The notes below the pieces were generated by a model. It was not told where the DNA came from and searched no databases. It saw only the letters and a list, made by a program, of their open reading frames with translations. Shown one piece after another: positions 40,324 through 54,519 of a DNA stretch of 64,000 bases. Source of the stretch: Falsiroseomonas ponticola (lineage in GTDB: Bacteria; Pseudomonadota; Alphaproteobacteria; Acetobacterales; Acetobacteraceae); contig NZ_JAERQN010000001.1 of NCBI RefSeq assembly GCF_016805305.1, positions 1,302,001 to 1,366,000 of the forward strand, in the 5' to 3' direction. The first letter of the stretch is position 1. Every line of letters begins with the position of its first letter. The translations under genes were made by a program, and so were the position numbers.

Positions 40324-40680
40324 TCAGGGGATCGTCGCGGGGAAGTCATGCGTGCCGTCCGCGCGCAGCGGCAGGCGCGTGACGGACAGCACGGCGGACA
40401 GCGGCAGCCTAGCGTAGAGATGCGGGAACAGGCCGGGCCGGCTGCTGCCGGATGCCGGTTCCCACTTCAGCGCATCGCCAAGCCGCGCCGCATCCGCTTC
40501 CACCAGCCAGAGATCCGGCACGCCGGCCCGGTGCTTGGCCGCGCTGGCGCGCAGCTGCGCGGCGGTGGAGAAATGCAGGAAGCCGTCGCGCTGGTCATGC
40601 GCGCTGCCGGCATAGGCGCCGGCGGCTTCCGCCGCGCGCCAATCGGCTTCCCTGACCATGGTGTAGATGCGGTCTTCCAT
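40324..40680 (-). CDS. DUF952 family protein
   Basis: 118 residues. The start IYTMVREADW and the segments DQRDGFLHFSTAAQL, LWLVEADAARLGDALKWEP and GLFPHLYARLPLSAV are typical of DUF952, a small cytoplasmic family of unknown activity. It follows the phage-type endolysin by 29 bp on the same strand, so it is either the first host gene beyond the phage module or a passenger transcribed with it. It abuts the convergent DUF4189-like gene with no spare bases. Confidence 0.82.
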   Translation of the reverse strand: MEDRIYTMVREADWRAAEAAGAYAGSAHDQRDGFLHFSTAAQLRASAAKHRAGVPDLWLVEADAARLGDALKWEPASGSSRPGLFPHLYARLPLSAVLSVTRLPLRADGTHDFPATIP

Positions 40681-40709: not shown

Positions 40710-41156
40710 TCAGCCGAGCAGGCGGTAGAAGACAAGCCCGCCCGCTTCCGCCACCGGCACCTGGCCCACCGCCCAGCGCGGCAGCGTATCCGCGGCGTGG
40801 TAGTGGGTGGCGCCCCGCGTCGGGTCCGGCAGGGCGCCGGACAGCGCGCGGGCGGCGATGCGCTGGCAGATGGCGAAGGCGGGGTCGTTGCGCGTCGCGG
40901 GATCCACCATCGCGTCCCGCCTCGGGTGGCGGGGATGCCAGCAGGCGAACTGGAAGGGCGCGCGGCAGATGGCGCCGACGGCGGTGCCCAGGTGCTTCGG
41001 CCCGTCGGGGCGGGCGGCCAGGCGCAGCCGGTTCATCACCACCGCGGCGACGCCTTCCACCCCCCGCACCGGGCGGCCGGCGGCCTCCCCCCACAGCGTC
41101 AGCGCCAGCACCGTCAGGCCCGCGGGCTCCGCCACGCGATCGATCGCCGCGCTCAT
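40710..41156 (-). CDS. phage-type cell wall hydrolase (SleB/Hydrolase_2 family)
   Basis: 148 residues. SleB-like lytic enzyme: LTLWGEAAGRPVRGVEGVAAVVMNR places the likely catalytic Glu24; ATHYHAADTLPRWA is the other conserved part. No signal peptide, so it needs a holin or another route to reach peptidoglycan, as for phage endolysins. Its ATG overlaps the stop of the upstream membrane-coiled-coil gene by one base, forming a lysis cassette at the end of the T7-like module. Release of particles is the inferred job. Confidence 0.82.
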   Translation of the reverse strand: MSAAIDRVAEPAGLTVLALTLWGEAAGRPVRGVEGVAAVVMNRLRLAARPDGPKHLGTAVGAICRAPFQFACWHPRHPRRDAMVDPATRNDPAFAICQRIAARALSGALPDPTRGATHYHAADTLPRWAVGQVPVAEAGGLVFYRLLG

Positions 41157-41521
41157 CACCGGCTTTCCCCCTCGGCGCGGGCGGAGAAGCCGACCTTGCG
41201 CTGCGTCACCACCTGGCCGGAGATGGCGGCGGCGGCCGTCGCGGCGCGGCTCACCTCGTCCAGCTTCTCCTCGATGCGGACCAGGTGCAGGGACAGGCGC
41301 GAATCGAGGTCCCGGATCAGGGAAAGCGGCACATAGGTGCGCGCGACCTCCAGCTTGAACTCCGCCAGGTCGTCGCGCGCGGAAGGCGCGGGCGGCGCGG
41401 CGGGCGGTTCCGGCCGGCTCATCAGGTCCCGGCGCAGCAGGTGCACCATCCAGAGCATCAGCAGCGCCAGCGGCGCATCCGCGGCCGCGGCCAGCATCTG
41501 GGGCGGGATTTCGGGGATCAT
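41156..41521 (-). CDS. phage membrane protein with coiled coil (holin/spanin-like position)
   Basis: 121 residues: one N-terminal membrane helix (about 13-29, APLALLMLWMVHLL) followed by a Pro-rich hinge and an amphipathic helix (VPLSLIRDLDSRLSLHLVRIEEKL in two heptad blocks). No recognised family. Its position between the terminase and the endolysin, its size and the single anchor fit a spanin- or holin-associated lysis protein, but this rests on context. It overlaps the endolysin gene. Confidence 0.6.
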   Translation of the reverse strand: MIPEIPPQMLAAAADAPLALLMLWMVHLLRRDLMSRPEPPAAPPAPSARDDLAEFKLEVARTYVPLSLIRDLDSRLSLHLVRIEEKLDEVSRAATAAAAISGQVVTQRKVGFSARAEGESR

Positions 41522-41568
41522 GGGGGCACTCCTTGAAGGGAAGCGGCGGCGGAACCACCCTGGGGAAG

Positions 41569-41644
41569 CCGCGCGGGGGGGCCGCGCGGCGTTGGGGGAT
41601 GCGCCGCGCGGCGGGACCGCGCGGCAGGGGGACGCACCGCGCGG
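41569..41644. repeat. five copies of palindrome CCGCGCGG
   Basis: The 8-bp palindrome CCGCGCGG occurs at 41569, 41582, 41604, 41617 and 41637 inside 76 bp, between the membrane-coiled-coil gene and the small plus-strand gene at 41648. A further copy lies at 45953-45960 upstream of the terminal genes. It may be a protein-binding array or a structural intergenic element. Confidence 0.6.
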
Positions 41645-41647
41645 CCG

Positions 41648-41866
41648 ATGTGGAACGAGCCTTACCTGGAGACCTGCTGCCGATCGGCGCTGCACCGGCT
41701 GACCCTGGTGCGGCCGCATGGGCGCCCTGACGGGCTGAAGGACGGGCCCTGCCTGCAACGCCTGGCGGGCATGGGCCTGGCCCGCGCCCGCCCCGATGGC
41801 CGGTTCGAGGCGACGGAAGCCGGCCTCGACCGGCATGCGACCGAAATCGCCCGCAAGCGGGCCTGA
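41648..41866 (+). CDS. small winged-helix-like protein inside the phage module
   Basis: 72 residues, the only plus-strand gene in the module. The second half (LQRLAGMGLARARPDGRFEATEAGLDRH) looks like the last helix and wing of a winged-helix DNA-binding fold, where Leu-rich helix, GLA turn and TEAG are common. Two adjacent cysteines are present (ETCCRS). It lacks a clear Shine-Dalgarno sequence and starts 3 bp after a CCGCGCGG repeat array. It ends 3 bp before the large terminase stop. Could be a regulator; its reality needs comparative support. Confidence 0.5.
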   Translation: MWNEPYLETCCRSALHRLTLVRPHGRPDGLKDGPCLQRLAGMGLARARPDGRFEATEAGLDRHATEIARKRA

Positions 41867-41869
41867 CGA

Positions 41870-43306
41870 TCAGAAGCCCCGCCAGGGCAGGGCGGTGCGC
41901 GGCGCGGGGGGCGTGAAGGGCAGGCGCACCGGCTCCGCCAGCAGGCAGCCCGCGACGGCGTCCAGCGCATCATCGGCCAGCCCCGGCGTATCCGGGCGCC
42001 ATTCCGCCATCTCCCGCACGAAGCGGCCGCGGAAGACGCTGTCATGCGCCGACAGGCGCCGCGCCGCCAGCACCGGGTCCAGCGCCGCCAGGATGCGGTC
42101 GGACTTGGCGCGCCGGCTCGTCGCCTCGACCACCGTGCAGGCGGTGCCGATGCGCGCGATCTCCCGCCGCAACAGGCCGGGCAGGAAGCGGCCGAGCCCG
42201 TTGGTCTCCACCCGCACCACCGGCAGCAGCAGGTCCCGCGCCAGCGCCGCGACGGCGCGGCATTGCTGGGTGGCGGCGTCCTCCTCCGCCTCCGGGTCGT
42301 GCAGCAGGTAGGCGACGCGGTGCAGGTAGTGCCGGCCCTCCGCATCCGCGAACATCGCGGCCAGCACGCTGGCATCGCCGCTGCCGGGGCGCCCATAGGC
42401 CGGGTCCCACCAGCCGCCGCCGGAGACGAGCCGCGTGCCCATCAGGGACAGCACGCCCCGCCCATTGGCCTCCCGGTAGTCGATCTCCGCGCCGTAGCGC
42501 GCCATCGCCGCGGGATCGAGCCGCGCGGCGCCGGTCGCCACGCGTTCCAGCATCATCTGCCGGCGGAAGGCCAGCGGGCCGACCCGGTCGCGCAGCGCGG
42601 CCACGGCCTCGTCCGGGAAGCGTTCCGGCCAGGTGCTGCGGCCCGCCGTGTCCAGCAGCGGCAGCGTGAGGCGCCGGTAGCCGGAGAGGAAGGCATCCTC
42701 CCCTTCCGCGTAGAGGCTGTCCTCCGCATGCGGCGTGCCGACGAAGAGGATGGTGCCGCCGGGGACGAGGACGAACTCGGCCTCCGTCAGCCTCTCCCGC
42801 AGTTCCTCGCGCTTGCCCGGCGTGTCGCAATTGCCGGCCACCTCCACGTCATCGGCGATGATGAGGTCGGCGCGCGCGCCGGTGATGTTGCCGCCGATCC
42901 CCGCCGCGATCATGGAGGCGTCGCGCAGCACGCCGTCGCGCGCCACCGTGAAGCGGTCCGCGGCCCAGGAGCCTTCGCCATGCCCCGGCAGCAGCGCGGC
43001 GCAGAGCGGATGGCGGCCGAGCACGCGGCGCACATTCGCCACCATCTTCGTCGCCAGCGCATGGTCCGCTGCCACCACCAGGATCCGCGTCTCCGGCGCG
43101 CGGTACAGCCGCCAGGCGCAGTAGAGGCCGATGAGCGTGGACTTGCCGAAGCCGCGGAAGGCCATCAGCAGCAGCCGCCGGTCCCCGGCGGCCTGCCGCG
43201 CCTGCAGCCAGCGCAGGACGCGCCGGTGCAGGGCGGGGGTGCCGAGGCCGCTCGCCTGGTTCCAGATCCAGGCGAATTCGACGAGGTCGGCGGGGCGGGG
43301 GCTCAA
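41870..43306 (-). CDS. terL: phage terminase large subunit, T7-like
   Basis: 478 residues. ATPase: Walker A FRGFGKST (50-57, the T7 gp19-type variant) and Walker B DLIIADDVE (147-155). Nuclease: the RNase H-like aspartates appear in WWDPAYGRPGSGDAS and near the end in DDALDAVAGC. Both activities therefore look intact, so DNA packaging is plausible. Its start overlaps the small-terminase stop (ATGA). Position after the tail spike and small terminase repeats the T7 order 17-18-19. Confidence 0.92.
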   Translation of the reverse strand: MSPRPADLVEFAWIWNQASGLGTPALHRRVLRWLQARQAAGDRRLLLMAFRGFGKSTLIGLYCAWRLYRAPETRILVVAADHALATKMVANVRRVLGRHPLCAALLPGHGEGSWAADRFTVARDGVLRDASMIAAGIGGNITGARADLIIADDVEVAGNCDTPGKREELRERLTEAEFVLVPGGTILFVGTPHAEDSLYAEGEDAFLSGYRRLTLPLLDTAGRSTWPERFPDEAVAALRDRVGPLAFRRQMMLERVATGAARLDPAAMARYGAEIDYREANGRGVLSLMGTRLVSGGGWWDPAYGRPGSGDASVLAAMFADAEGRHYLHRVAYLLHDPEAEEDAATQQCRAVAALARDLLLPVVRVETNGLGRFLPGLLRREIARIGTACTVVEATSRRAKSDRILAALDPVLAARRLSAHDSVFRGRFVREMAEWRPDTPGLADDALDAVAGCLLAEPVRLPFTPPAPRTALPWRGF

Positions 43307-43641
43307 GCCTCCTCCTCCCCCTCACCGGCCGGCGGCGGCGGATCGGCGTCGCCTTCCCGCGCGAGGGTGGCGCGGGCCTTGGCCAGGATGTCCTCCGCCG
43401 TCTCCTCCGCCGTCTCCGGCTCCTCCGCCGCCAGGGCGGCGAGTTCGCTGATATGCGCCAGCGCCACGCGGGCGGCCGCCTGGCGCGCGGCGAAGTTCTT
43501 CGAATCCGGCGGCACATCCTCCAGCGGCGGGTCGCTGACGAAATGCGCGTATTCCTCGGCCACGCGGTCGATCACGGCGGCGAGCTTCGCGCGCGGCACG
43601 CCGGGCGTCCTGCCGCGCGGGGCGGTGGCAGGCTTCCTCAT
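43303..43641 (-). CDS. probable terminase small subunit
   Basis: 112 residues, mostly helical: a basic start (KPATAPRGRTPGVPRAKL), a helical centre (VIDRVAEEYAHFV...ARQAAARVALAHISELAAL) and a very acidic, Pro-rich tail. No sequence signature is decisive. Assignment rests on position directly upstream of, and 4-bp overlap with, the large terminase, as gp18 precedes gp19 in T7. It also overlaps the tail-spike stop by 4 bp. Confidence 0.65.
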   Translation of the reverse strand: MRKPATAPRGRTPGVPRAKLAAVIDRVAEEYAHFVSDPPLEDVPPDSKNFAARQAAARVALAHISELAALAAEEPETAEETAEDILAKARATLAREGDADPPPPAGEGEEEA

Positions 43642-45920
43642 GCCTTCACCACCCGCACGCGCACCGTGCCGGGATTGAGGTCCACCGCCGCGCCCGACCG
43701 GTTCCAGGCCGTGACCGTCACCGTATCCTGCGCCCCGATCTGCGCCAGGAAGACGCAGCCGGAGGTGGCGAGGGAGAAGGCGGCCTGGGCGAAGTCGCCG
43801 GGCCTGGCGCCGGCGAGGGTGACGTTGATCTGCGCGCTGGCGCCGGCGGCGATGGAGGGCGGGTCCCAGGCCAGCTCCGCCGTCAGTTCGCGGACGCCGA
43901 CGCGCAGGTCCGGCAGGCCGGACAGCAGCGGTGGCGCGTGGCGCGGGTCGCAATGCAGGCGCATGGCGCGCAGTTCGTAATCCGCCGTGATGCGGGCGAC
44001 GCCGATGATGGCGGTGGCCACCTGCGGCGCCAGGCGGATGGCCTGCAGCCGCGTCAGCCCCGCATCGTCCATGTCCGCCGACCCCTGCCACCAGCGCGCC
44101 GTGGCGTTCCAGGTGAGCGACTGGCCGGAGGCCATCACCATGGTGCCGGCGGCATCGGTCAGCAGGTTCCAGGCGGTGTCGAAGGCCATGACGACGAGGC
44201 GCGGCGAATCCGCATCCACCGTCAGCGCGAAATCCTTGCAGCGCGAGGTATCGACCACGAAGCCGAGGCCGCGCCCGCCCGTCAGCACCACGCCGCGATT
44301 CGTGAGCGTGTAGGAATCGAGCGCGGGGAAGGCGAATTGCGGCAGGCTGGTCGGGCTGCCGGAGACGTTGGTGGACAGGCAGGCGAGCCTGTCGAAGCCC
44401 GTCTCCGTCGCGTTCCAGCGGATGGCGGCGGCGCGCAGCGATGGCACGGCGGCCACTTCCCGCGTCGCTTCCCGGTTCGGCAGCGCCTGGTGATAGGCCT
44501 TCACCGCGCCGCCCAGCCTTGTCGCGGTCTCCGTGTGCTCGATCTCGATCGCATAGCCCTGGCTCGCCCAGGCGACCTCGTACAGGTGGTCCTGCGCCCC
44601 GGCGGTGTGGCGGGCGACGATGGGGTCGCAGCCTTCCATCCGGATGGCGCGCGCGATCACGGCACGGCTGTTCACCTCCATCAGGAAGGGGATGCCCGTG
44701 GCCGGGATGGTGCGCGCGTTCAGCTCGAAGTTCGGGCCGTCGAACAGGTGGCGGTTATGCGCGACATAGGCGCCGGGCTCGGCGGAGAAGCGGATGCCGA
44801 AGCGGTCCTTGTCCGTATTGACCGTGCTGCCCACGGCGAAGTGGCCGCCATAGTAGCGGATGGAGGTGTTCCACGCCGCCGCCGTCAGGGTATGGACGTC
44901 GAGCCCGATCTTGTTGTTGACGAAGCGGCCGAGGATCAGCGTGCTGTCCTCGAACCCCCGCTCGTCGCCCAGCGTGCGCAGGCCGATGGTGAAGCCCGCG
45001 ATCTCCCGGATCTCGATGAGGGAGGCGTCGTGGTTGCGGATCACCACGCCGATGTCGCCCTCGCTCAGCCAGTCGCTGATGGTGGCGCGCGTCACCGCGA
45101 TGCCGCTGTGCAGCTTGTTGGCGTTGCGCGTGGTGCCGCCATCGCCGATGGTCAGCGCGGGCTGGCCGCCCGGGCCGGCATAGATGATCCGGCCGCGCAT
45201 GGTCAGCCCGGCCGCGGCGCCGGGCAGCGTCAGCGGCTGCTGCGTGCGGAAGGACCCTTCGCCGATCGTCAGCATCTTGCCGGAAGCCGCCGCCGCGTTC
45301 ATCGCGGCCTGCAGCGCCGGGCCATCATCCGTCACGCCATCGCCGGTCGCGCCGAAGTCACGCGCGCTCAGCGTCTCCGCCAGCTTGTCCTCCACCGTAT
45401 GCGGCACGGCGCCGGGGAAGGGGGAGGTCAGCAGGCCGGAATCGCGCGGCACCACGACGATGTCGCCGACGCTGTCGAAGCCCAGCAGCCGGTTGGCGCG
45501 CGCCGTCCGCATCGGCAGCGTCATGTCGCCGCCAAGGTCGGCGGGGTCCTGCCGCAGGGTGGAGGAGAGTTCCTCCCGCTGCTCCTGCAGGGCGGCGACG
45601 ACGCGGTCCAGCTCGTCATTCAGCGTGCGCGCGCGGAGCACGCCATTGTCCTGGAAGTCGGAGGTGCGCTCGACCTTCACGCGGCGGCGCAGCGTGACGG
45701 TGCTGCCGGCGGCGGGGGCGGTGGGCAGCGTGACCGTGCCGCCTTCCGACAGGCCGGCGCCGGAGACATCGAAGCCGCTGCCGAGGACGATGCCGTCGAT
45801 GCGGACCTCCAGCTCCTCCGCCAGGAAGATGGGGAAGGGGTAGGTGAAGTCGGTACGCGCGCCATCGCCCACGTATTGCACGCGCGGCGCGACGTCGCCG
45901 ATGCGGATGTGCTCGGCCAT
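43638..45920 (-). CDS. phage tail spike: T7 fibre-type anchor plus pectate-lyase-like beta-helix
   Basis: 760 residues. The first ~140 resemble the N-terminal attachment domain of T7 gp17 (VQYVGDGARTDFTYPFPIF, TLRRRVKVERTSDFQ, LNDELDRVVAALQEQ). From about 180 a right-handed beta-helix begins with the pectate-lyase-3 motif ARDFGATGDGVTDDGPALQ, followed by repeated short strands. The C-terminal ~130 residues are Ig/lectin-like strands. Such proteins bind and cut host surface polysaccharide. Located between the gp14-like gene and the terminases, as in T7. Confidence 0.85.
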   Translation of the reverse strand: MAEHIRIGDVAPRVQYVGDGARTDFTYPFPIFLAEELEVRIDGIVLGSGFDVSGAGLSEGGTVTLPTAPAAGSTVTLRRRVKVERTSDFQDNGVLRARTLNDELDRVVAALQEQREELSSTLRQDPADLGGDMTLPMRTARANRLLGFDSVGDIVVVPRDSGLLTSPFPGAVPHTVEDKLAETLSARDFGATGDGVTDDGPALQAAMNAAAASGKMLTIGEGSFRTQQPLTLPGAAAGLTMRGRIIYAGPGGQPALTIGDGGTTRNANKLHSGIAVTRATISDWLSEGDIGVVIRNHDASLIEIREIAGFTIGLRTLGDERGFEDSTLILGRFVNNKIGLDVHTLTAAAWNTSIRYYGGHFAVGSTVNTDKDRFGIRFSAEPGAYVAHNRHLFDGPNFELNARTIPATGIPFLMEVNSRAVIARAIRMEGCDPIVARHTAGAQDHLYEVAWASQGYAIEIEHTETATRLGGAVKAYHQALPNREATREVAAVPSLRAAAIRWNATETGFDRLACLSTNVSGSPTSLPQFAFPALDSYTLTNRGVVLTGGRGLGFVVDTSRCKDFALTVDADSPRLVVMAFDTAWNLLTDAAGTMVMASGQSLTWNATARWWQGSADMDDAGLTRLQAIRLAPQVATAIIGVARITADYELRAMRLHCDPRHAPPLLSGLPDLRVGVRELTAELAWDPPSIAAGASAQINVTLAGARPGDFAQAAFSLATSGCVFLAQIGAQDTVTVTAWNRSGAAVDLNPGTVRVRVVKA

Positions 45921-45981
45921 CGTGGGCTCCAGGAAGGGGGGGCAGGGAAGGGCCGCGCGGCGGGCGCGCGGCGGCGGGGAA

Positions 45982-46422
45982 TCAATCGAGCAGGTTGCGC
46001 AGCGATGTGCCGAAGCTGGTGCCGGCGCGCAGCCAGGTGGTCAGCGACCCGTCATTGTTCAGCAGGCTGCGGCGCCCGGCGGCGAGCCGCGCGGCGAAGA
46101 GCTGGTCGCTGTCGGATTGCGCCGCGGCGGCATCGCGTTCGAGCCCGGCCGTCAGCGCGGCGGCGGAGCCCTCGTCCGGCGAGACGCCGCTGGCGGCTAG
46201 CCGGGCGCGGGCGGCGGCCGTGGTGCCGGCCAGCCGCGCCTCCCGCGCCCTGGCCTCGGCCGCCTGCTGCGCGGCCAGCTGCTGCTGCCGCGCCGCTTCC
46301 TGCTGCCGGGCGGCATCGGCCTGGGCGCGGGCATTGCTGGACTGCACCTGGGCCTGGCGCACGGTGGAGTAGAGCGAGGCGCCCGCGCCGAGGGCGGTCG
46401 CGATGGGGGCGAGTTGCGCCAT
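45982..46422 (-). CDS. internal-virion-like phage protein (T7 gp14 position)
   Basis: 146 residues: a short hydrophobic start (MAQLAPIATALGAGASLY), a long Ala/Gln coiled coil (about 25-75), GVSPDEGSAAAL, and a polar end. Residue pattern and position after the tail tubular B-like gene match small internal virion/ejection proteins such as gp14, although no signature can be proven by eye. Its ATG overlaps the upstream gene stop by one base. Between it and the tail spike lie 61 bp containing a CCGCGCGG copy. Confidence 0.55.
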   Translation of the reverse strand: MAQLAPIATALGAGASLYSTVRQAQVQSSNARAQADAARQQEAARQQQLAAQQAAEARAREARLAGTTAAARARLAASGVSPDEGSAAALTAGLERDAAAAQSDSDQLFAARLAAGRRSLLNNDGSLTTWLRAGTSFGTSLRNLLD

Positions 46423-48302
46423 CAGTCGGTCATCCTCATGTCGGTGGTGACGGAAAGCAGGGTCAGGGGCAGCGGCGTCTCGCCCTCCACCCGCCACAGC
46501 GGCGCCATCGCATCGCGCCGCCAGCCCAGCGCGCGCAGCGTGACGTCGCCGGTGAAGGGCGCGGGCGCGGCATCCAGCAGCGCCGTGTCCAGGCGCCGGA
46601 ACGGCACCGGCTGCACGCCGCGGCCGAGATCGACCTCCAGCGCCGGCGTCTCCATCACCCGGAAGGTGGCGGAGACCAGGCGGAGCGGCGCGGAAGCCGC
46701 CCCGCCCGCCCCGGCCAGGGCCATGGGCAGCGGTTCCACCACATGGCGGAAGGGCAGCCCCACCTGCACGCTGCGCGCCGGCGGATCCAGCGTGACGGCG
46801 CCGGCCGAGACCGTCAGCACGCCGCGCGGCGCGCCATCGGCCAGGATGCCGACGGAGGCGCCTTCCAGATGGCCGAGCCCGGACCAGACATCCTGTTCCG
46901 CGACGGCGATGCCGGACAGCGCGGCATCGAAGCCGATGCCCGTGTCGAAGCGTTCCAGCCGGTGCCAGCCATTGCGTTCCACCACGACGAAGACGCGGCC
47001 CTCGGTCTCCGCCACCGCCTTGAAGCGGCCCGCCGTCTCCAGCCGCGTCCAGGCCGTCACCTGCTCCGCGCGATAGAGCGTCAGGGTCGCGATCGACCCG
47101 TCCGCCATCACCACATGCAGCAGCCGCATGGTCTGGTCATAGGCCATGGAGACCGGCGCCTGGATCAGGTGGTGCGCGACCAGCGCGAGGTCATTGGCCT
47201 GGTACACGTCGGCGACGTCGGTATAGGCGAATTCATGCACCGCGCGGCCGGACCGCGCGACGAAGAGCGTCGCGCCATCCACATCGACCGGCGGCACCTG
47301 CCGGTCCACCAGGCTGCCGACGCGCGTCTGGCGGTGCAGCTGGATCGAGGACGGCGTCAGCGGATCGCCCGTCACCATCCATTCGGCGCCGGAGGTGAAG
47401 ACCTGCAGGTGGCGGCCGGAGAAGACGGCGCGGATCGCGTTCACCTGGTCCGACACCAGCGCGAATTCGATCGCCTGGTCATCGAGCCCCGTGCCGTTGT
47501 CGAAATTGGCGATGTCGCCGGTGCGCGACAGCCACAGCCGGTTCGGCAGGTCCCGCGACCCGCCCAGCACCAGCCGGTCCTGGTGGAAGCAGGCGGAGAC
47601 GGGGTAGCCGCGCACGCCGCTGAAGGCGGGCTCCGCCCAATCCGTGGTCGGCGTGGTGCCGGGCAGCGTGCCGTTGACGACCCCCGTGGCGGAGCGCGCA
47701 TTGGCCACCGCGGTGATCGCGACGGTGAGGCCCGAGATGCGGAACGCCGCCGTGACATGGCCGCTGGAGAAGAGGTCGGCGGAGGCCGTCAGCGTCACGG
47801 TGCCCGTGGTGGCGGAGGCCGCGAGCGTGACGCCGGGGCGGAAGTTGAAGACCGGCACGGCATCGAAGACGAAGGGCGCCAGCGTCCAGCTGGTGTGGCT
47901 GGTGCGCGTCAGCCGCTGCGGCGCCACGTCGGGGTGGAACAGCAGCAGCGTGTCCGCGCTTTGCGTGAAGGCGACCTGGCCCTGCATGCCGGTGGACCAG
48001 GGCGCGGGCAGGCTCGCCACCGCGACATCGCCCAGGAAGACGTGCAGCTGCCCCTCGGTCAGCGCCAGCAGGTAGGTCTGCTCGGTGTTGAACTCGAAGG
48101 GGATCAGCCGCGCGGGGCCGGGCAGGGATGCCACATGCAGCAGCCCCGGCCGGCGCGCGACGCCGCCCGTCGGCTGGATGACGACGTTGCGCAGCCGCCG
48201 CGCGCCATTCTCGAAGGCGCGCAGGTCGGCACGGCCGAACAGGTTGGGCGCGAGCTCCCCGGCGGTGAAGGAAGCCTTGGTGCGCCGCGTGGCGATGGTC
48301 AT
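46422..48302 (-). CDS. phage tail nozzle / tail tubular protein B-like
   Basis: 626 residues. The start SFTAGELAPNLFGRADLRAF...GARRLRNVVIQPTGGVARRPG is a conserved opening of podovirus tail nozzle-like proteins; the rest is beta-rich with repeated blade-like segments (QTYLLALTEGQLHVF, DTLLLFHPDVAPQRLTR, DRLVLGGSRDLPNRLWLSR). Position after gp11-like gene matches T7 gp12. It would form the distal tail tube and attach the spike. Starts 4 bp after the gp11-like stop. Confidence 0.75.
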   Translation of the reverse strand: MTIATRRTKASFTAGELAPNLFGRADLRAFENGARRLRNVVIQPTGGVARRPGLLHVASLPGPARLIPFEFNTEQTYLLALTEGQLHVFLGDVAVASLPAPWSTGMQGQVAFTQSADTLLLFHPDVAPQRLTRTSHTSWTLAPFVFDAVPVFNFRPGVTLAASATTGTVTLTASADLFSSGHVTAAFRISGLTVAITAVANARSATGVVNGTLPGTTPTTDWAEPAFSGVRGYPVSACFHQDRLVLGGSRDLPNRLWLSRTGDIANFDNGTGLDDQAIEFALVSDQVNAIRAVFSGRHLQVFTSGAEWMVTGDPLTPSSIQLHRQTRVGSLVDRQVPPVDVDGATLFVARSGRAVHEFAYTDVADVYQANDLALVAHHLIQAPVSMAYDQTMRLLHVVMADGSIATLTLYRAEQVTAWTRLETAGRFKAVAETEGRVFVVVERNGWHRLERFDTGIGFDAALSGIAVAEQDVWSGLGHLEGASVGILADGAPRGVLTVSAGAVTLDPPARSVQVGLPFRHVVEPLPMALAGAGGAASAPLRLVSATFRVMETPALEVDLGRGVQPVPFRRLDTALLDAAPAPFTGDVTLRALGWRRDAMAPLWRVEGETPLPLTLLSVTTDMRMTD

Positions 48303-48306
48303 GCGA

Positions 48307-48885
48307 TCACCCCCTGACCGAGACCAGCGGGAAATCCTCGATCCCGCGCGGCGTGTCCTGCTGGCTGTCGATCTGCCGCGCGCCGCGCAGCTCCGTCTCC
48401 GCCAGGCGGAACAGCATCTCCGCCCGCGATGCGGATTCCGTCAGCGGCAGGCAGAATTCCGCCGCGAGGCGCGCCACGAGGGCCTGCGCGAAGAAGGGCG
48501 GGAAGGCGCTTTCGTCGGCGCGGAAGATGTAGGTCAGCACGATGGAATCGGCATCCGCGTGCAGCCGGTCCTCATGGATGCGGTAGGGCGTGCCGCGCCC
48601 GCGGCCGCCGCTGCCGGCCGACAGGGCGCGCAGGAACCCCGGCGGCAGCTGGAAGGCATGCGCCAGGTCGGCGCGCGGCACGGCGGCCAGGCGTGGCAGG
48701 GAAGCCTGGCCCGTGGCGAAGGACCAGGGATGGGCGGAGAGCAGCGCATCGCGCACCGGCGCGTAGAGGTTCGCCGCCACCTCCGCCTCCGCCGTCCCCT
48801 CATCCAGTGAGGCGACGGGCTGCGCGCCAAGGCGCAGCAGGGCGCGCGAGCACAGCGCGAGCGCGGTGAGTGCCATGGTTGTCAT
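48307..48885 (-). CDS. tail tubular protein A (T7 gp11-like adaptor)
   Basis: 192 residues. ALTALALCSRALLRLGAQPVASLDEGTAEAEVAANLYAPVRDALL is a classic gp11/tail tubular A opening; AHPWSFATGQ and the C-terminal LAAEFCLPLTES...MLFRLAETEL also fit. This adaptor ring links portal and nozzle. The start may be 48885 (MTTMALTAL) or 48876 (MALTAL). It follows the capsid gene by 76 bp, in T7 order. Confidence 0.85.
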   Translation of the reverse strand: MTTMALTALALCSRALLRLGAQPVASLDEGTAEAEVAANLYAPVRDALLSAHPWSFATGQASLPRLAAVPRADLAHAFQLPPGFLRALSAGSGGRGRGTPYRIHEDRLHADADSIVLTYIFRADESAFPPFFAQALVARLAAEFCLPLTESASRAEMLFRLAETELRGARQIDSQQDTPRGIEDFPLVSVRG

Positions 48886-48961
48886 GTCCGTTCGCGGGAG
48901 GATGGGCGGCCCCGATGACGGGACCGCCCGGGGTGATGGCGACGATGTCAGCCTGCCGACG

Positions 48962-49801
48962 TCACTCCGCCGCGCGCATGCGCACGACGCCCAGGTCATC
49001 GACCAGCACGGCGCCCTGGCTCATCATGTTGGCGACGAAATGCGCGGCGCGGTCGCCGTGCCAGGTCACGTCCGTCTGCACTTCCGCCGCCGCGGCGTGG
49101 CCGATGGCGGTGCGGTGGAAGAAGTAGCAGTAGCGCAGCGCGCCCGCCTTGGTCAGGCCGGAATGCGGCACCCACAGCGCGCCCAGCCATCGCTTCGCCT
49201 GGCTGCCCTTCCAGGGCAGGGCGTCGTCGCCGACATACTGGGAGGAGGCGAATTCCTCGATCGCCAGCAGCTGGCTCCACTGCTTCCAGCCGACGACGGC
49301 GACGCGCCCGCCATCGTCCGGCACGTCGGCCGCGCCCATCATCTCGAAGGCCAGCAGCACCTTCTCCTTCGTCAGGCCGTCCGTGTCCGTCGTGCCCGCG
49401 GCGGTGCCGATCGCCTCCCGCGTGCCGGCATCCAGCGCCGCGATGATCAGCTCATCCGTCTTGCGGCCCAGCGCATAGGCGCCGGCATTGGCGACGACGG
49501 TGCGCTCGTCGATGTTGGTCTTCAGCTCATCGAGGCGGTCGATCCAGTCGCCGGCATAGTAGTCCTGCATCACGCATTCGACCTGCGCGTGCTCCAGGTT
49601 CATCACCGGCACGGCGCCGTTGCGCGTCTTCGCCGCGGCGACGCCCTTGCCGACCTTCGGGAAGAAGGTGCTGGAGCCGGTGACGCCGGACTTGGAGCGC
49701 ACCAGCGGGCGCAGCTTGCTGCCCTGGCGCTGATAGGCCTCCTTCACCTCGGCCTGGAACTGGCGGGTGAAGACGGCGTCGATCTGGGTGCTGGTGGGCA
49801 T
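48962..49801 (-). CDS. phage major capsid protein
   Basis: 279 residues. An N-terminal helix with QIDAVFTRQFQAEVKEAYQRQGS, then SGVTGSSTFFPKVGKG and DWIDRLDELKTNIDERTVVANAGAYALGRKTDE, typical of podovirus-type HK97-fold capsid proteins; the C-terminal part has beta-rich segments. It follows the scaffold gene, separated by 268 bp of non-coding DNA with strong hairpins. That gap and its own leader may set a higher expression level, as needed for capsid protein. Confidence 0.85.
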   Translation of the reverse strand: MPTSTQIDAVFTRQFQAEVKEAYQRQGSKLRPLVRSKSGVTGSSTFFPKVGKGVAAAKTRNGAVPVMNLEHAQVECVMQDYYAGDWIDRLDELKTNIDERTVVANAGAYALGRKTDELIIAALDAGTREAIGTAAGTTDTDGLTKEKVLLAFEMMGAADVPDDGGRVAVVGWKQWSQLLAIEEFASSQYVGDDALPWKGSQAKRWLGALWVPHSGLTKAGALRYCYFFHRTAIGHAAAAEVQTDVTWHGDRAAHFVANMMSQGAVLVDDLGVVRMRAAE

Positions 49802-50069
49802 CGAGGCCCTCCTTCGTGATGGGGAAGCGGGGAAGGGACCGCGCCGCCGGTTGCCCCCGGGGGATCGCCCCTGGGGCCGGCGCCACGGCGTGGCTCCGCA
49901 GGCCCGCCTGCGCGGGTTGCTTGCGGGAAAGGGGGCGGGGCGGATGGGGGCCGTGCGGCCCGCGCCATCCGCCCCGCGGTCGCCGCGCCCGGGGATGGGG
50001 CGCGGCGATGCCGGCCGGCGCCACGCGCTGCGTTGCGCAGCGGGCGCCCGGCCGGATCCCGGCGGCGGG
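49802..50069 (-). other. non-coding gap with three strong hairpins between scaffold and capsid genes
   Basis: No gene is seen. Hairpins: 49937-49953 with 49956-49975 (11-bp outer and 6-bp inner stem, 3-nt bulge), 49980-49990 with 49998-50008 (11 bp), and 50026-50032 with 50036-50042 (7 bp, loop TTG) extended outward by complementary GGCGCC arms. No U-run follows them on the minus strand, so simple termination is unlikely; processing or mRNA stabilisation of the capsid transcript is possible. Confidence 0.6.
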
Positions 50070-50807
50070 CTATTCGCCGACGAGGCGCCTGAACCCGTCC
50101 GTGACGCGCTTCACGAAATCGGGCTCCCGCGTCCGCCAGTAGCGGGGGTCGCGCATCATCCGGCGCAGCTCGCCCTCATCGGGCCCGGCTTCCGCCTGCG
50201 CATCGCGCGCCAGCGGCGGTTCCTTGCCTTCCATCATGCGGCTGAGCGCGACCACGCCCTCCGCCGTGCTGGACAGCGCGGTGAAGACCGCCTCCGGCAG
50301 GTTGGCGCGGCCCCAGGCGGAAAGCTGGGCGGCGATGCGGCGGAACCGCTCCTCGCCGCCGAAATGCGCCTGCAGCTTCTCGATCTGGCGCGCGGCCTCG
50401 AAATCGGCGGCGGCCTCGGCGATCAGCGGCAGCAGGCGTTCCGCCGCCAGGTCATAGACCAGCTGCACCTGGCGCGGCGTGAAGCCGGCCTCGTGCAGCT
50501 TGGCGTTCACGGCGGGGTCCGGCGTCACCACCTCGTTCGGCGGCGTGATCGCGTAGCCATCGGGGCTGTCGGGGATGCCGAGCAGCCGGCGCCAGCGCAG
50601 CCGCTCCTCCTCCGGCGCGTCATCCGCCGGCGGGCCCTGGCGCTGCGACAGGCGGCGTTCCAGTTCCAGGTAGGATTTCAGCAGCGCATCGACGCGCAGC
50701 GCGCCGGCGGCCTCGTCCCAGAACTTGTCCGGCACCTCGGCCGGGCGGGTGGGGCGCCCGGCCGGCGCTTCCGGCTTCAGGGCGGTCTCGAGAAGATCCT
50801 CGGGCAT
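50070..50807 (-). CDS. phage capsid assembly scaffold protein
   Basis: 245 residues, helical and acidic. VPDKFWDEAAGALRVDALLKSYLELERRL and the following LLGIPDSPDGY are the usual opening of podovirus scaffold/capsid-assembly proteins (T7 gp9-like position); the C-terminal part is a long amphipathic helix set ending KRVTDGFRRLVGE. It lies 8 bp after the portal stop and before the capsid gene, as in T7. Confidence 0.82.
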   Translation of the reverse strand: MPEDLLETALKPEAPAGRPTRPAEVPDKFWDEAAGALRVDALLKSYLELERRLSQRQGPPADDAPEEERLRWRRLLGIPDSPDGYAITPPNEVVTPDPAVNAKLHEAGFTPRQVQLVYDLAAERLLPLIAEAAADFEAARQIEKLQAHFGGEERFRRIAAQLSAWGRANLPEAVFTALSSTAEGVVALSRMMEGKEPPLARDAQAEAGPDEGELRRMMRDPRYWRTREPDFVKRVTDGFRRLVGE

Positions 50808-50815
50808 GCCGGGGC

Positions 50816-52264
50816 TCACTCCTGGGTCTGGGGTTGGGCGGGGGCCGCATCGGCGGGCCGCAGGATCTCCGGCGGCGCGCCCAGCGTTCGGGCCAGCCAC
50901 CGCGCGGCGGCCGGGGCATCCAGCGTCGCGCGCGCCTCGGGGCCGAGCGTCGCGGCGGCCTGCAGGAAGAGCAGCGTGTCCGCCGCATCGGCCCGCGCCT
51001 GGACGCGGGCGAGCGGCGAGGCGTAGGTCAGCCGCGCTTCCCGCCCATCGGGCAGCAGCGCGGGGATCTCGCCCCGCCGGCGCAGCACGGCCAGGCAGCG
51101 GGCCACCAGCGGCGTCAGCAGCTCCGCCTGCAGGCGGCCATAGGTGGCGCCGAGCCGCCGCGCGCTCTGCGCGCTGCGTTCCAGCACCTCGGTCGCCGTC
51201 ATGCCGGGCTTCTCCGCCTGCGCGATCCGGTCGGCCAGCAGCGCGCCGCGGATGCGGCTGCGCAGGTCGGCCAGCACCAGCTGGGAGACGTCGAAATTGC
51301 CCGGCGCGGCGAGGGGTGTGAGGCCGGAGGAACCCGGCGCCTTCGGGATGATGGCGCCCGGCACCAGCCGCACGGTGGCGGGGTTCAGCACGCCATCGTC
51401 TTCCGCCTGCCAGATGCCGGTGGCGGCGATGGAGGCGTTCTTCAGCACCAGCTCCACCACCTTGTTGGCGGTGCGGATGTCCGGCAGCGCCTTGGCGACC
51501 GGGCCGCGGCCATAGGTCTCGCCCGGCACCTTCAGCCAGCGGAAGGCGATGAAGGGGCTTTCCGCGAAGCGGCCCTCGGCCAGCAGCCGGGGGGTGCCGT
51601 CCTCCTCCTCCGCCACCACCGCCAGGCGGTGGCCGTGGCGCGGATCGGGCCAGGCGGCTTCCACCACCCGCAGCGTCGGCGCCGCCTCATCCTCCGCCCG
51701 CCGGCGTTCCGCGATCGCCGCGGCCGGCCAGCGCGCCCGGATCTCCTCCGCCGTCAGGCGCAGCGACCGGAACACGGTGTCGAGCCGGCCGGAGACGCCT
51801 TCCTCCAGCACCGCCTCGCGCATCGGCACGGCGGAGAAGCGCAGCGCCGAGGCCTCTCCCACCGGCGCCTCCTCCACCATCAGCAGGCCGGTGCCGGTGA
51901 CGACGAGTTCGAGGAAGGCCTGGTGGATCTCCAGCGCGAAGTTCGACCGGTCGAGGTGGCCCTGCAGCGTTTCCGCCGCCGCCTCCAGCGCCTTCGCCAC
52001 CTCCTGCGCGGCGGCGCCATCGGCCACCGGGCGGGCGGGCGCCAGGCCGAACCAGCGCGACCAGGGCGGCACCAGCTCCGCCAGCAGGGAGGCCGCGAGC
52101 TGTTCCGCCGCGTCGGCGGCCGTCGCATCGAACAGCGGCGGGGTGTTCGGCGCCGGCAGGGCCATGTCGTAGCAATCCTGCCACTGGCCCTCCATCGGGC
52201 GGCGGCGGGCGCTGGCGCGGGCGTGGCGGGCCAGGATGTCCTCGGGTGTCATCATCGCCCTCAT
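50816..52264 (-). CDS. head-tail connector (portal) protein, T7 gp8-like
   Basis: 482 residues. MEGQWQDCYDMALPAP, LAASLLAELVPPWSRWFGL, the ring-forming middle, KVPGETYGRGPVAKALPDIRTANK and EKPGMTATEVLERSAQSARRLGATYGRL are typical of the podovirus head-tail connector family. The protein forms the dodecameric vertex through which DNA is packaged. The ATG at 52264 overlaps the upstream stop (ATGA) and gives MRAMMTPED; starts at 52255 or 52252 are alternatives. Confidence 0.9.
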   Translation of the reverse strand: MRAMMTPEDILARHARASARRRPMEGQWQDCYDMALPAPNTPPLFDATAADAAEQLAASLLAELVPPWSRWFGLAPARPVADGAAAQEVAKALEAAAETLQGHLDRSNFALEIHQAFLELVVTGTGLLMVEEAPVGEASALRFSAVPMREAVLEEGVSGRLDTVFRSLRLTAEEIRARWPAAAIAERRRAEDEAAPTLRVVEAAWPDPRHGHRLAVVAEEEDGTPRLLAEGRFAESPFIAFRWLKVPGETYGRGPVAKALPDIRTANKVVELVLKNASIAATGIWQAEDDGVLNPATVRLVPGAIIPKAPGSSGLTPLAAPGNFDVSQLVLADLRSRIRGALLADRIAQAEKPGMTATEVLERSAQSARRLGATYGRLQAELLTPLVARCLAVLRRRGEIPALLPDGREARLTYASPLARVQARADAADTLLFLQAAATLGPEARATLDAPAAARWLARTLGAPPEILRPADAAPAQPQTQE

Positions 52265-52509
52265 TCGCCCAGCAGGCTCTTGCGCACGGCGAAGCCCGGC
52301 GCCGGGTCCAGCACGCCCCGCGGTGAGGTCGCGATGGTGCCCGCCAGGCCCCGGCGGGCGCGCTCCAGCGCCTTCAGGCGGGCTTCCCGGGCCGCGGCTT
52401 CGGCATTGGCCGCGGCGGCAGCGCTGGCATCGGCCTGCGCCTGGGCGTTGGCCGCACTGGAATCGACGGCAGGCGCCGCCGGCTTCGGCGCCCTGATCAG
52501 GCCACCCAT
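52261..52509 (-). CDS. small Ala-rich phage protein upstream of portal
   Basis: 82 residues: MGGLIRAPKPAAPAVD, a long Ala/Glu/Arg helix (about 20-55) and a short end. No family recognised. It is first in the structural operon and overlaps the portal start. The upstream 163 bp contain a good sigma-70 promoter followed by a terminator-like hairpin, so this gene is the first to benefit from read-through. Confidence 0.65.
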   Translation of the reverse strand: MGGLIRAPKPAAPAVDSSAANAQAQADASAAAAANAEAAAREARLKALERARRGLAGTIATSPRGVLDPAPGFAVRKSLLGE

Positions 52510-52553
52510 GCGCGCTTCCTTCGGCTCGATCGGTGAAAGGGAACCGGGCGCCC

Positions 52554-52592
52554 GCCAAAGAAATGGGCCCGCCCGGCGAACCGGACGGGCCC
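52554..52592 (-). terminator. Rho-independent terminator just after a promoter
   Basis: On the minus strand, 52586-52592 pairs with 52565-52571 (7 bp), then a C-A mismatch and a 4-bp CCGG stem closed by a 4-base loop, followed by ATTTCTTTGG (T-rich, 52564-52555). This is a proper terminator for minus-strand transcription, placed about 50 bp after the predicted transcription start of the promoter at 52648-52676. Confidence 0.65.
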
Positions 52593-52641
52593 GAGGCAGG
52601 GACCGGAGGGAGGTGCCATCGGGCGCAACTCGCCCCGTGGC
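52555..52641 (-). ncRNA. candidate ~87-nt attenuator leader RNA or small RNA
   Basis: Defined by the promoter at 52648-52676 (start near 52641) and the terminator ending near 52555. The RNA would contain CACCUCC (52615-52609), a perfect complement to a strong Shine-Dalgarno sequence, in a single-stranded-looking stretch. It could be a lambda-6S-like leader awaiting antitermination, or an acting small RNA. Prediction only; no homology known to me. Confidence 0.35.
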
Positions 52642-52647
52642 CTGGCC

Positions 52648-52676
52648 TGTGTAGCGGCCTGTCAGGGCCGAGTCAA
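52648..52676 (-). promoter_or_regulatory. strong sigma-70-type promoter for the structural operon
   Basis: Minus strand: -35 TTGACT (52676-52671), 17-bp spacer, -10 TACACA (52653-52648). The -35 matches five of six consensus bases and the form resembles alphaproteobacterial stable-RNA promoters. The -35 lies just inside the end of the upstream gene. Confidence 0.5.
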
Positions 52677-53137
52677 GAATTAATTCCTATTTCGCCGAAG
52701 ATTCTGCGCGGCGCCGGATCAGCCACCTGGCCGCCCAGCGCGCGGAACAACCCATAGGGCGTGACCGCGAAGGGCGCGCCCGGCCCCAGCAGCGCCCGGC
52801 AGAGCGAGACGCAGGTGAAGGGCAGCAGCGCCGGGCCGAGGCTCGCCACGGGCTCGCCCGGCAGGAAGGGGCCCAGCACCCGCAGCCCCGCGCGGCGGTA
52901 GAAGCCCGGCAGGTCGAACCCCGCGGCAACCGGCAGCCGCGCCACCACCAGGCGGCCGGAAAGCGGTTCCAGCACCGTCCAGCCGCCCTCATCCGACAGC
53001 GCCGCGAAGCAGTGGCGGAAGCCCGGCCGCAGCAGGCGCAGCCAGGGCTGGTCCGCCACACCGCCGAAGGCGATCCAGACGCCCTGGCCGGCCGGGTCGG
53101 CCGCCAGCGCCCGGCGATGCGCCAGCCGCGCGGTCAT
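52673..53137 (-). CDS. conserved phage-module protein with His...Cys peptidase-like motifs
   Basis: 154 residues, not recognised with confidence. HCFAALSDEGGWTVLEPLSG and LPFTCVSLCRALLG...FAVTPYGLFRAL are two strongly patterned segments: a histidine followed by a beta-hairpin with Trp/Glu, then a cysteine at the start of a helix. This order (His before Cys) is that of permuted NlpC/P60-like (YaeF/YiiX-like) peptidases, but this is a by-eye inference. Its start overlaps the upstream gene (ATGA). Confidence 0.6.
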   Translation of the reverse strand: MTARLAHRRALAADPAGQGVWIAFGGVADQPWLRLLRPGFRHCFAALSDEGGWTVLEPLSGRLVVARLPVAAGFDLPGFYRRAGLRVLGPFLPGEPVASLGPALLPFTCVSLCRALLGPGAPFAVTPYGLFRALGGQVADPAPRRIFGEIGINS

Positions 53138-53697
53138 CGCCGCGGCCCGGGGAAGGGCAGGATCTCCGCGCCCCCGCTCTTCCGCGGCTCGTCCTTCGCC
53201 GTCCCGGCCTTCGGTGCCCCCGGCTTCGGTACTGCCGGCGCCCCGCCGCCCGCCGCGCCCCCAGCCGCGCCCCCCACGGGGCCGGCTTCCGTCGCCAGCG
53301 TCCGCACCGCTTCCATCCCCCGCGCCGGGCCGGCCACGATCCCCTTGGCGCGCAGCGGGTGGTCGAGCCTGTCCATCGCCTCCCGCCACAGGCGCAGGTC
53401 GCCGGCTTCCTGCGGGATGCGGGCGCTGGGCTGGTCGCCACGCTCCCCCCAGATGCGCAGGATGCGCGCATGCGCCAGGTCGATCCGCCGCTGGCGATAC
53501 AGCCGGTCCAGCACCTTCACCACGTCATCGGGCTCGCAGGGGCGGACCACGGCGCCGCGGGCCGCGCCCAGCCGGGCGCCGTCGCGGCGGGCGGTCAGCG
53601 CCGCCATGGTCCAGAACCAGGCATCCTCGGCGCAGCTGAAGGGCTCCGCGCGGCTCATGCTGGCCAGGACAGGGGCGCGGCTGGTGATGAAAGCCAT
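53134..53697 (-). CDS. conserved hypothetical protein, first gene of the phage module
   Basis: 187 residues. The N-terminal 125 residues are well structured (MAFITSRAPVLASMSRAEPF, CAEDAWFWTMAALTARRDG, CEPDDVVKVLDRLYRQRRID, LWREAMDRLDHPLR), the rest is a Gly/Ala/Pro-rich tail. No domain known to me. It has a ribosome-binding site (GGAAGGA) 12 bp upstream. It is the first gene downstream of the LexA-box promoter, divergent from the S24 repressor. Role unknown; being first under SOS control hints at a control or packaging-recognition function (inference). Confidence 0.75.
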   Translation of the reverse strand: MAFITSRAPVLASMSRAEPFSCAEDAWFWTMAALTARRDGARLGAARGAVVRPCEPDDVVKVLDRLYRQRRIDLAHARILRIWGERGDQPSARIPQEAGDLRLWREAMDRLDHPLRAKGIVAGPARGMEAVRTLATEAGPVGGAAGGAAGGGAPAVPKPGAPKAGTAKDEPRKSGGAEILPFPGPRR

Positions 53698-53719: not shown

Positions 53720-53740
53720 GTTCCCGAACAAAACAGGAAC
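53720..53740 (-). promoter_or_regulatory. LexA-type operator GTTC-N7-GTTC
   Basis: Read on the minus strand, GTTC (53740-53737), seven bases, GTTC (53729-53726): the exact alphaproteobacterial LexA box. The second GTTC is also half of a palindrome GTTC-N2-GAAC (53720-53729). It covers the predicted start site of the module's first operon. Additional copies of the half-site lie at 53755-53760 (TGTTC) and 53781-53788 (TTGTTCCT, inverted relative to 53735-53742). Confidence 0.65.
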
Positions 53741-53775: not shown

Positions 53776-53874
53776 GGATGTTGTTCCTATTGATTCGCGA
53801 CTCGAAACCTAGGATGTGATGCCCAGGTCGAGCCCCCATATGCGGGCCTCGATTCGCATGAGGGGCCGGCTGCG

Positions 53875-54519
53875 ATGCGGCACGAGGATATCTGGCGGGC
53901 GATCGATGCCCTGGCTGCCGAGCATGGGCTCTCGGCCTCCGGCCTCGCGCGCCGCGCCGGGTTGGACGCCACCGCCTTCAACCCGTCGAAGCGCACCGGC
54001 GCCGATGGCAGGGCGCGCTGGCCCTCCACCGAAAGCGTCGCCAAGGTCCTGCATGCGACGGGGACGGGGATGGAGGCCTTCGCCTCCCTCGTCACCGGCG
54101 CCCCCGCCCTGCCGCGCAACCGCGCCATCAGCGCGCGGCGCATCCCCCTGATCGGCCTGGCCCAGGCGGGCGGCGATGGCTATTTCGACGATGGCGGCTA
54201 CCCCGTCGGCGGCGGCTGGGACGAGATCTCGGTGCCCGACGTGCCGGACCCCAACGCCTATGCGCTGGAGATCAGCGGGGAGAGCATGGAGCCCGTCTTC
54301 CGCGACGGCGACGTGGTCATCGTCTCCCCCGGCGCGCCGGTGCGGCGCGGGGATCGCGTGGTGGTGCGCACCCGGGCGGGGGAGGTGATGGCCAAGCAGC
54401 TGCTGCGGCAATCCGCGCGGCGGGTGGAGCTGGCCAGCCTCAATCCCGCCCATCCCAACTACAGCTTCGACCTGTCGGAACTCGCCTGGATGCACCGCAT
54501 CGTCTGGGCCAGCCAGTAG
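53875..54519 (+). CDS. S24/LexA-like autocleavable transcriptional repressor
   Basis: 214 residues. N-terminal helix-turn-helix (about 6-60; DIWRAIDALAAEHGLSASGLARRAGLD), then an S24 peptidase domain: cleavage site Ala98-Gly99 in LAQAGG, Ser137 in SGESMEP and Lys174 in VMAKQLL. All residues for RecA-stimulated self-cleavage are present. It is divergent from the phage module with LexA-type half-sites in between, so it probably controls that module and itself; it may instead be a conserved host regulator. The ATG at 53875 starts the helix-turn-helix cleanly. Confidence 0.88.
   Translation: MRHEDIWRAIDALAAEHGLSASGLARRAGLDATAFNPSKRTGADGRARWPSTESVAKVLHATGTGMEAFASLVTGAPALPRNRAISARRIPLIGLAQAGGDGYFDDGGYPVGGGWDEISVPDVPDPNAYALEISGESMEPVFRDGDVVIVSPGAPVRRGDRVVVRTRAGEVMAKQLLRQSARRVELASLNPAHPNYSFDLSELAWMHRIVWASQ

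Follow-up and report, generated by a model that had tools for sequence, protein, structure and literature searches.

Few origins of gene transfer agents (GTAs) have been described, and those that we found in print for Alphaproteobacteria are of the RcGTA and Bartonella kinds. A 64,000-nucleotide stretch of the genome of Falsiroseomonas ponticola (RefSeq assembly GCF_016805305.1, contig NZ_JAERQN010000001.1, positions 1,302,001 to 1,366,000 of the forward strand; hereafter the window) raises the question whether a phage of another build, a podovirus, has been turned to the same use. Positions 40710-53137 of its minus strand hold an intact, phage-derived block of morphogenesis and lysis genes in the order of phage T7, which we call the module, and an earlier note made from the sequence alone had proposed that it is a podovirus-type GTA. 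Our comparisons indicate that the module is likely to be a domesticated, vertically inherited, podovirus-derived element that works as a GTA. This reading draws on gene content, regulatory wiring, inheritance, selection and the absence of replication and integration genes at the locus, all as judged from sequence comparisons.

In the order of transcription, the block comprises the following genes:

52673-53137, minus strand: orfB, the first module gene, whose fold resembles 2if6 and 3kw0 weakly and may be a permuted NlpC/P60 (YiiX-like) one
52261-52509, minus strand: orfC, a small alanine-rich protein (weak match to phrog_831, E 0.032, with 52261-52512 as query)
50816-52264, minus strand: portal or head-to-tail connector, T7 gp8-like (PF12236, E 1.3e-121)
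50070-50807, minus strand: scaffold, T7 gp9-like, start codon estimated (PF05396, E 1.6e-13, with 50070-50813 as query)
48962-49801, minus strand: major capsid protein (PF19821, E 2.6e-77)
48307-48885, minus strand: tail tubular protein A, gp11-like (phrog_394, E 1.3e-45)
46422-48302, minus strand: tail tubular protein B or nozzle, gp12-like (phrog_376, E 2.7e-146)
45982-46422, minus strand: internal virion protein, gp14-like (phrog_418, E 6.2e-9)
43638-45920, minus strand: tail spike with a pectate-lyase/epimerase-like domain (PF03906, E 1.4e-8; PF12708, E 7.4e-7)
43303-43641, minus strand: small terminase candidate, from position, size and a weak match to phrog_31793 (E 2.5e-5)
41870-43306, minus strand: large terminase, TerL (phrog_38, E 1.2e-79)
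41156-41521, minus strand: holin-like protein, a weak call made from its place just before the endolysin (phrog_29007, of unknown function, E 1e-13)
40710-41156, minus strand: endolysin, a SleB-type cell wall hydrolase (PF07486, E 3e-12)

These Pfam and PHROG matches bear out the single-strand, T7-order array of structural, terminase and lysis genes that the earlier note had described, the small terminase and holin calls being weak. The interval it had drawn, 40710-53697, holds for the phage block, whereas its first gene (53134-53697) proves to be a host gene, orfA. The frames are open, as had been stated, with 0.89-0.94 G+C at third codon positions in the main genes; the block as a whole has a GC content of 0.737 against 0.718 in the remainder of the window. 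Some neighbouring genes do overlap by 1-4 bp, but gaps rather than overlaps separate scaffold from capsid, TerL from holin, orfB from orfC and gp14 from spike. The terminase active sites had been thought intact, and in an alignment of TerL (rows under 400 amino acids excluded) 63-64 of 64 rows retain each of the motif residues.

Among Acetobacteraceae, gene layout and gene lengths are nearly constant across carrier loci. This includes the spike, which measures 759-931 amino acids (median 760) in 44 loci, and gp12 is almost as constant; phage spikes, by contrast, usually turn over. An open reading frame of 93-115 amino acids occupies the small-terminase position in 42 of the 44 loci with both spike and TerL, the exceptions being G246 (none) and G102 (spurious); here and below, G and L numbers are our handles for genomes and loci. 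orfB is matched in 48 of 48 Acetobacteraceae loci and orfC in 44.

Inheritance was followed in samples of one genome per species, the family, order and class samples being even draws and the 57 genomes of the rpoB tree and 40 class loci being chosen by hand. The portal is present in 15 of 15 Falsiroseomonas genomes, with one match each (in G005 a fragment at a contig end), and in 80 of 299 genomes of the family, 75 at 60% identity or more (fragments included) and five at 26-31% only. The best 80 of 252 gp12 relatives include the carrier genera Neoroseomonas, Pseudoroseomonas, Roseococcus, Belnapia, Siccirubricoccus, Rubritepida, Elioraea, Dankookia, Humitalea, Roseicella and Caldovatus, and Falsiroseomonas stagni DSM 19981 and Neoroseomonas lacus are among the carriers. 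In the rpoB tree (G154 dropped, its motif being absent, and G246 only 21% filled), 40 carriers form one clade (support 100/99) with a single non-carrier, G137, inside it, and carrier state changes twice, compared with 14.9 times when shuffled. Patchy presence had been named as a warning sign. The genus is fully occupied and the carriers form one clade, although they span only 27 of the 102 genera of the family.

A tree of the concatenated module genes has 20 of 35 splits in common with that of rpoB (38 genomes; 0.2 by label shuffling; Mantel r 0.80), with G246, G011 and G154 left out beforehand and G025 and G052 without an rpoB match. The module tree recovers 17 of the 21 strong rpoB splits, and 18 when the spike is omitted, in which case two are contradicted; TerL alone and spike alone recover 15 of 21 each. 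Since the splits agree with few contradictions, inheritance of the module is, as far as these trees tell, mainly vertical with some exchange. One carrier clade with one loss, together with this broad agreement, accords with the maintained element that had been suggested.

Purifying selection is evident in the main structural and lysis genes, whose median dN/dS values (NG86 method, up to ten pairs) lie between 0.11 and 0.26, a check that the earlier note had proposed. The values are 0.11 for capsid and gp14, 0.14 for gp11, 0.145 for portal, 0.16 for spike, 0.17 for TerL, 0.18 for scaffold and the holin-like gene, 0.20 for gp12, 0.23 for orfB, 0.26 for the lysin and 0.37 for orfC, with about 0.57 for the small terminase (six pairs only). 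Several features that one would look for in a GTA are found here: phage-derived head, tail and packaging genes that are kept intact in all but a minority of loci, co-diversification with the host (within Acetobacteraceae), and a locus free of replication and integration genes belonging to the element.

Directly upstream of the module lie the following features:

53134-53697, minus strand: orfA, a conserved host gene heading the operon, 187 amino acids, of no family, which adjoins the S24 gene in most of the module-less loci fetched
53726-53740, minus strand: LexA-type SOS box, GTTC-N7-GTTC, upstream of orfA and conserved at most carrier loci
53785-53815, minus strand: paired ATCCTAGG / CAATAGGA half-sites, a candidate S24 operator, in blocks conserved in an alignment of 47 intergenic regions
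53875-54519, plus strand: S24 / LexA-CI-type regulator, divergent from the module, an old host gene (PF00717, E 1.9e-21)

Of 120 family genomes, 92 have a match to the S24 regulator with an E-value of 1e-15 or lower, many of them without the portal, and orfA lies beside it in 14 of 20 module-less loci fetched. Because both genes occur in module-less genomes, orfA probably marks the point immediately behind which the phage block entered. orfA overlaps or abuts orfB in 40 of 47 carrier loci, which suggests that orfA and the module genes share a single transcript.

The sequence GTTC-N7-GTTC, which we take to be the LexA box of Alphaproteobacteria, stands between S24 and orfA in 38 of the 47 carrier loci, where shuffled sequence would give 0.25; all 897 kb of 48 loci contain 49 occurrences in total. 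The window itself has two occurrences against 0.52 expected; the weight of the box therefore lies in its conservation across loci, since a lone match in the window proves little. Such a box also precedes S24 in 15 of 20 module-less loci (no shuffle control) and lexA in the F. ponticola genome. Control by the host SOS response had been a guess, and this box makes it plausible that the operon is induced by DNA damage. A looser pattern of the paired half-sites recurs in 35 of the 47 intergenic regions. In two loci with no SOS box (L061 of G030 and L082 of G019), repeated CCTAT-type half-sites surround a TTGACA-like sequence in the gap between S24 and orfA, and there the S24 protein alone may control the operon. 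Residues Ser137, Lys174 and Ala98-Gly99 of S24, presumably those that serve self-cleavage, are kept in 47 of 47 Acetobacteraceae loci. Of 28 relatives from the wider class, 19 retain Ser137, 20 Lys174, 23 Ala98 and 20 Gly99, and self-cleavage is therefore probably not retained throughout the class.

The same arrangement reaches well beyond the family. A portal at E 1e-60 or better is present in 61 of 385 class genomes, including that of F. ponticola, and 40 of the 60 other loci were fetched. Portal, opposite-strand S24 and either orfA or orfB occur together in 31 of these, from 21 families. The earlier note had proposed to look for the gene order among related Rhodospirillales; the start of the block recurs in a wider set of bacteria. 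A fuller block, with capsid, gp11, gp12 and TerL too, is seen in 18 of the 40 (13 families); in seven loci (L350, L352, L353, L372, L375, L377 and L381) the block ends after the scaffold within the 14 kb read, and an early contig end truncates three. Among the 31 loci, 13 have an SOS box (0.28 expected). Co-diversification at this level was measured against the linked S24 gene alone (Mantel r 0.52-0.79). In a portal tree built by a quick method, with long-branch warnings and few phage rows, a clade with SH-aLRT support of 95 unites 19 Acetobacteraceae rows, 31 of 32 S24-linked class rows (the exception being L370) and one extra row, L365. This clade is short-branched and apart from phage and prophage portals, and the module portals accordingly appear distinct from, and slower evolving than, their phage homologues.

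An autonomous phage or complete prophage would carry an integrase and replication genes at the locus, and the module does not. Family searches of the block and of the flanking proteins tested found neither kind of gene. As the earlier note had remarked of the near surroundings, there is no integrase (some 828 kb separate the module from the closest integrase-domain match on its contig), no polymerase in those flanking proteins that were tested (the search for one did not extend to the whole genome), and no pair of direct repeats of at least 18 bases bracketing both block ends in the flank search. Flanking proteins with a family match are of host types: DUF952, DUF4189, an amidase, two solute-binding proteins, a P-type ATPase and Nramp.

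Related prophages supply a useful contrast. A second portal, 35-40% identical, is present in six genomes (G058, G061, G073, G311, G375 and G387). In G061, G387, G058, G073 and G375 an integrase-domain match (below the Pfam cut-off in the last) stands no more than about 20 kb away from this portal, though not in G311. Four prophage stretches carry large proteins between the gp14-like gene and the spike, three of 793-1116 amino acids in L248, L250 and L254 and two (1022 and 1564 amino acids) in L252; at this place the module has a gap of 61 bases. In the G058 prophage, one of the large proteins is a virion structural protein and another an internal protein bearing a transglycosylase domain, and its neighbourhood also contains two primases, an integrase and a TerL that belongs to another PHROG. 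The module TerL profile matched none of the called proteins of the related prophages; relatives of orfB stand upstream of the portal in five prophage stretches. The pilot protein of one prophage, sought in 22 genomes, was found in G058, G311, G387 and G059. It is missing from G061, whose prophage carries another protein set, so its absence elsewhere is suggestive only. The spike of that G061 prophage (L252:3482) aligns along its whole length with module spikes of relatives at 55% identity, and a spike or receptor seems to be shared between prophage and module.

The temperate podovirus Piluca of Alcaligenes (MZ326864) offers a similar comparison. Its TerL is related (28.6% identity), its portal, capsid, gp11-like and gp12-like genes are arranged in much the same way, and it too has a block of terminase, fibre, holin and endolysin genes. 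Unlike the module, it possesses its own integrase, immunity repressor, replication genes and three large tail or pilot proteins.

Among the GTAs already described, RcGTA of Rhodobacter capsulatus and its relatives (type I, Rhodogtaviriformidae) resemble the module in being host-wired, phage-derived clusters that are vertically inherited, stand apart from phage homologues and possess a tail spike. They differ in that GTA_TIM (PF13547) is their marker, whereas the module has a podovirus portal, scaffold and nozzle set and an SOS box at the head of its operon. The genome of F. ponticola gave no match to GTA_TIM in a profile search and none to Terminase_6N. Of the 385 class genomes, 36 contain GTA_TIM, and not one of the 61 portal genomes is among these, where 5.7 shared genomes would be expected under independence; the probability of zero overlap, 0.0014, assumes independent genomes, and these are related. 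Table 3 of PMC6821227 lists RcGTA-like clusters in 0 of 62 Acetobacterales genomes. An RcGTA spike was reported to degrade biofilm and raise transfer (PMC13420450).

The Bartonella GTA (type II, Bartogtaviriformidae), which we set apart by its description, is like the module in being alphaproteobacterial and co-evolving with its hosts, and unlike it in its HK97-type capsid homologues (PMC9662315) and its tie to a run-off replication origin (PMC11841831). By the description in PMC12946183, FpGTA of Faecalibacterium is GTA-like and most likely podovirus-like, with structural and lysis genes, but it belongs to another phylum and is arranged in two operons. Caulobacter GTAs were reported to promote survival after DNA damage (PMC9632790), and the SOS box at our locus suggests a similar use, although Caulobacter vibrioides, the one control genome with GTA_TIM, is of the RcGTA-like kind. 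For a podovirus-type GTA in these bacteria we found no description among titles and abstract openings in the open-licence literature, which covers few preprints and no subscription papers, and passages of PMC10883770 and PMC13236601 contain nothing on one.

How might the module work? We propose that DNA damage would activate RecA and thereby take LexA, and probably S24 too, off the orfA promoter, so that one transcript would run from this host gene into the phage genes. Short-tailed capsids would be built, filled with host DNA by the terminase and fitted with the spike, and the holin and endolysin would lyse the producing cell. The particles would then bind the polysaccharide of neighbouring kin. 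Their DNA may be left in the periplasm, from which the recipient's own uptake would take over, an idea that follows from the lack of the large internal and pilot proteins of related temperate phages and from the need of R. capsulatus recipients for competence-type uptake genes. The benefit would perhaps lie in repair templates. Induction, the single transcript, packaging of host DNA, delivery and benefit are thus steps that we infer.

Several observations weigh against this scheme, or at least against its generality. C. crescentus makes GTAs yet is without competence machinery (PMC9632790), which speaks against generalising the periplasmic uptake step. The exact SOS box is absent from 9 of 47 carrier loci and from 18 of the 31 class loci. 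G137 is a sister genome without the element, and at two points (G035/G140 and G187-G227-G236) a strong rpoB split meets a contrary split that is strong in the module tree. Gene decay had been named as another sign that would count against a GTA; most species are intact, but a minority is broken, with TerL and lysin affected in L059, gp12 truncated in L069, gp12, gp14 and spike missing from L081, and the portal interrupted in G086, G287 and G397. The small terminase is short, and Pfam, PHROGs and NCBIfam reveal no DNA-binding domain in it. We do not count this, because that of Piluca, a real phage, is equally short (102 amino acids), and small-terminase length was dropped as a GTA signature for the same reason. 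Amino-acid carbon gave a mixed outcome, in that module portals use less than three prophage portals, scaffolds use more and capsids show no clear difference (3-6 prophage sequences per gene). The low-cost amino-acid signature published for RcGTA (PMC7360931) was therefore set aside here.

Other explanations deserve weighing against the same evidence. The module could be an SOS-triggered device for altruistic lysis or killing, in which particles or the lysis pair kill or feed neighbours and packaging is incidental. The SOS box, the holin-like and endolysin genes, a spike with a depolymerase-like domain and the absence of large internal proteins would all fit. A killing tail or lysis pair, however, needs neither portal, scaffold nor TerL, and these genes are under purifying selection, with the terminase motifs nearly invariant; we consider this explanation unlikely. 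Somewhat less probable still is a domesticated particle put to another use, such as protein delivery or capsid-protected DNA as a public good. It would likewise suit the missing internal proteins and might give a role to orfB and DUF952, which are otherwise unexplained conserved passengers, but the conserved layout, in which module genes alone were mapped, has no obvious variable cargo gene.

The reading of a recent prophage or satellite was rejected, given the carrier clade, the distance to the nearest integrase and the lack of flanking repeats. A defective prophage, or a satellite of a living phage that lodges repeatedly behind orfA, would account for genes of phage origin and for the finding that some genomes with the module also carry related-portal prophages, for most of which an integrase match lies close at hand. 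It sits badly with one carrier clade with one loss and with congruent trees, with the absence of a nearby integrase and of flanking direct repeats of at least 18 bases, with related prophages that reach merely 35-40% portal identity, and with prophage proteins that the module TerL profile does not match, the G058 TerL being of another PHROG. We regard it as the least probable of the alternatives.

To read the module as a domesticated GTA invites a broader proposition, for and against which we see about equal grounds. It would represent a second ancient alphaproteobacterial GTA lineage, of podovirus origin and run as a host SOS operon, which occurs where RcGTA-like elements are absent and shares the DNA of damaged cells with kin, uptake being left to the recipient as the internal delivery proteins were lost. 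If so, different phages would have been domesticated repeatedly for the same end within one class, groups without RcGTA would have a route of gene exchange, and catalogued 'proviruses' of 12-13 kb would have to be reclassified. The question whether gene sharing driven by DNA damage is selected would then become directly testable in culture-collection bacteria. In IMG/VR, relatives of the module, scanned for with the gp12 alignment, are short contigs, and 41 of the best 80 of 391 measure 11.0-13.8 kb.

Some class-level loci depart from the common plan. L357, L364 and L365 have the same genes in altered order, and in L357 the terminase-lysis block lies between orfB and orfC. L358, L361 and L382, from genomes of 1.1-1.2 Mb, keep the SOS box, but the starts of gp14 and the small terminase are only about 500 bases apart, too close for a spike gene to fit in between. 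Five fetched loci, L366-L369 and L371, are of a different layout. L366 and L367, from genomes of about 0.9 Mb (99% complete), have a 45-46% identical portal and, within the same stretch, relatives of TerL and gp11, the other genes of the cluster being absent. They come from one genus with three portal genomes (G488, G607 and G777), and the cluster in these reduced genomes may be scattered or in decay.

One neighbour of uncertain membership lies beyond the endolysin and is often linked to the 3' end of the block:

40324-40680, minus strand: DUF952 protein (PF06108, E 9.8e-27)

Of the 48 Acetobacteraceae loci, 35 have a matching DUF952 gene close to the endolysin, as do 3 of the 40 class loci.

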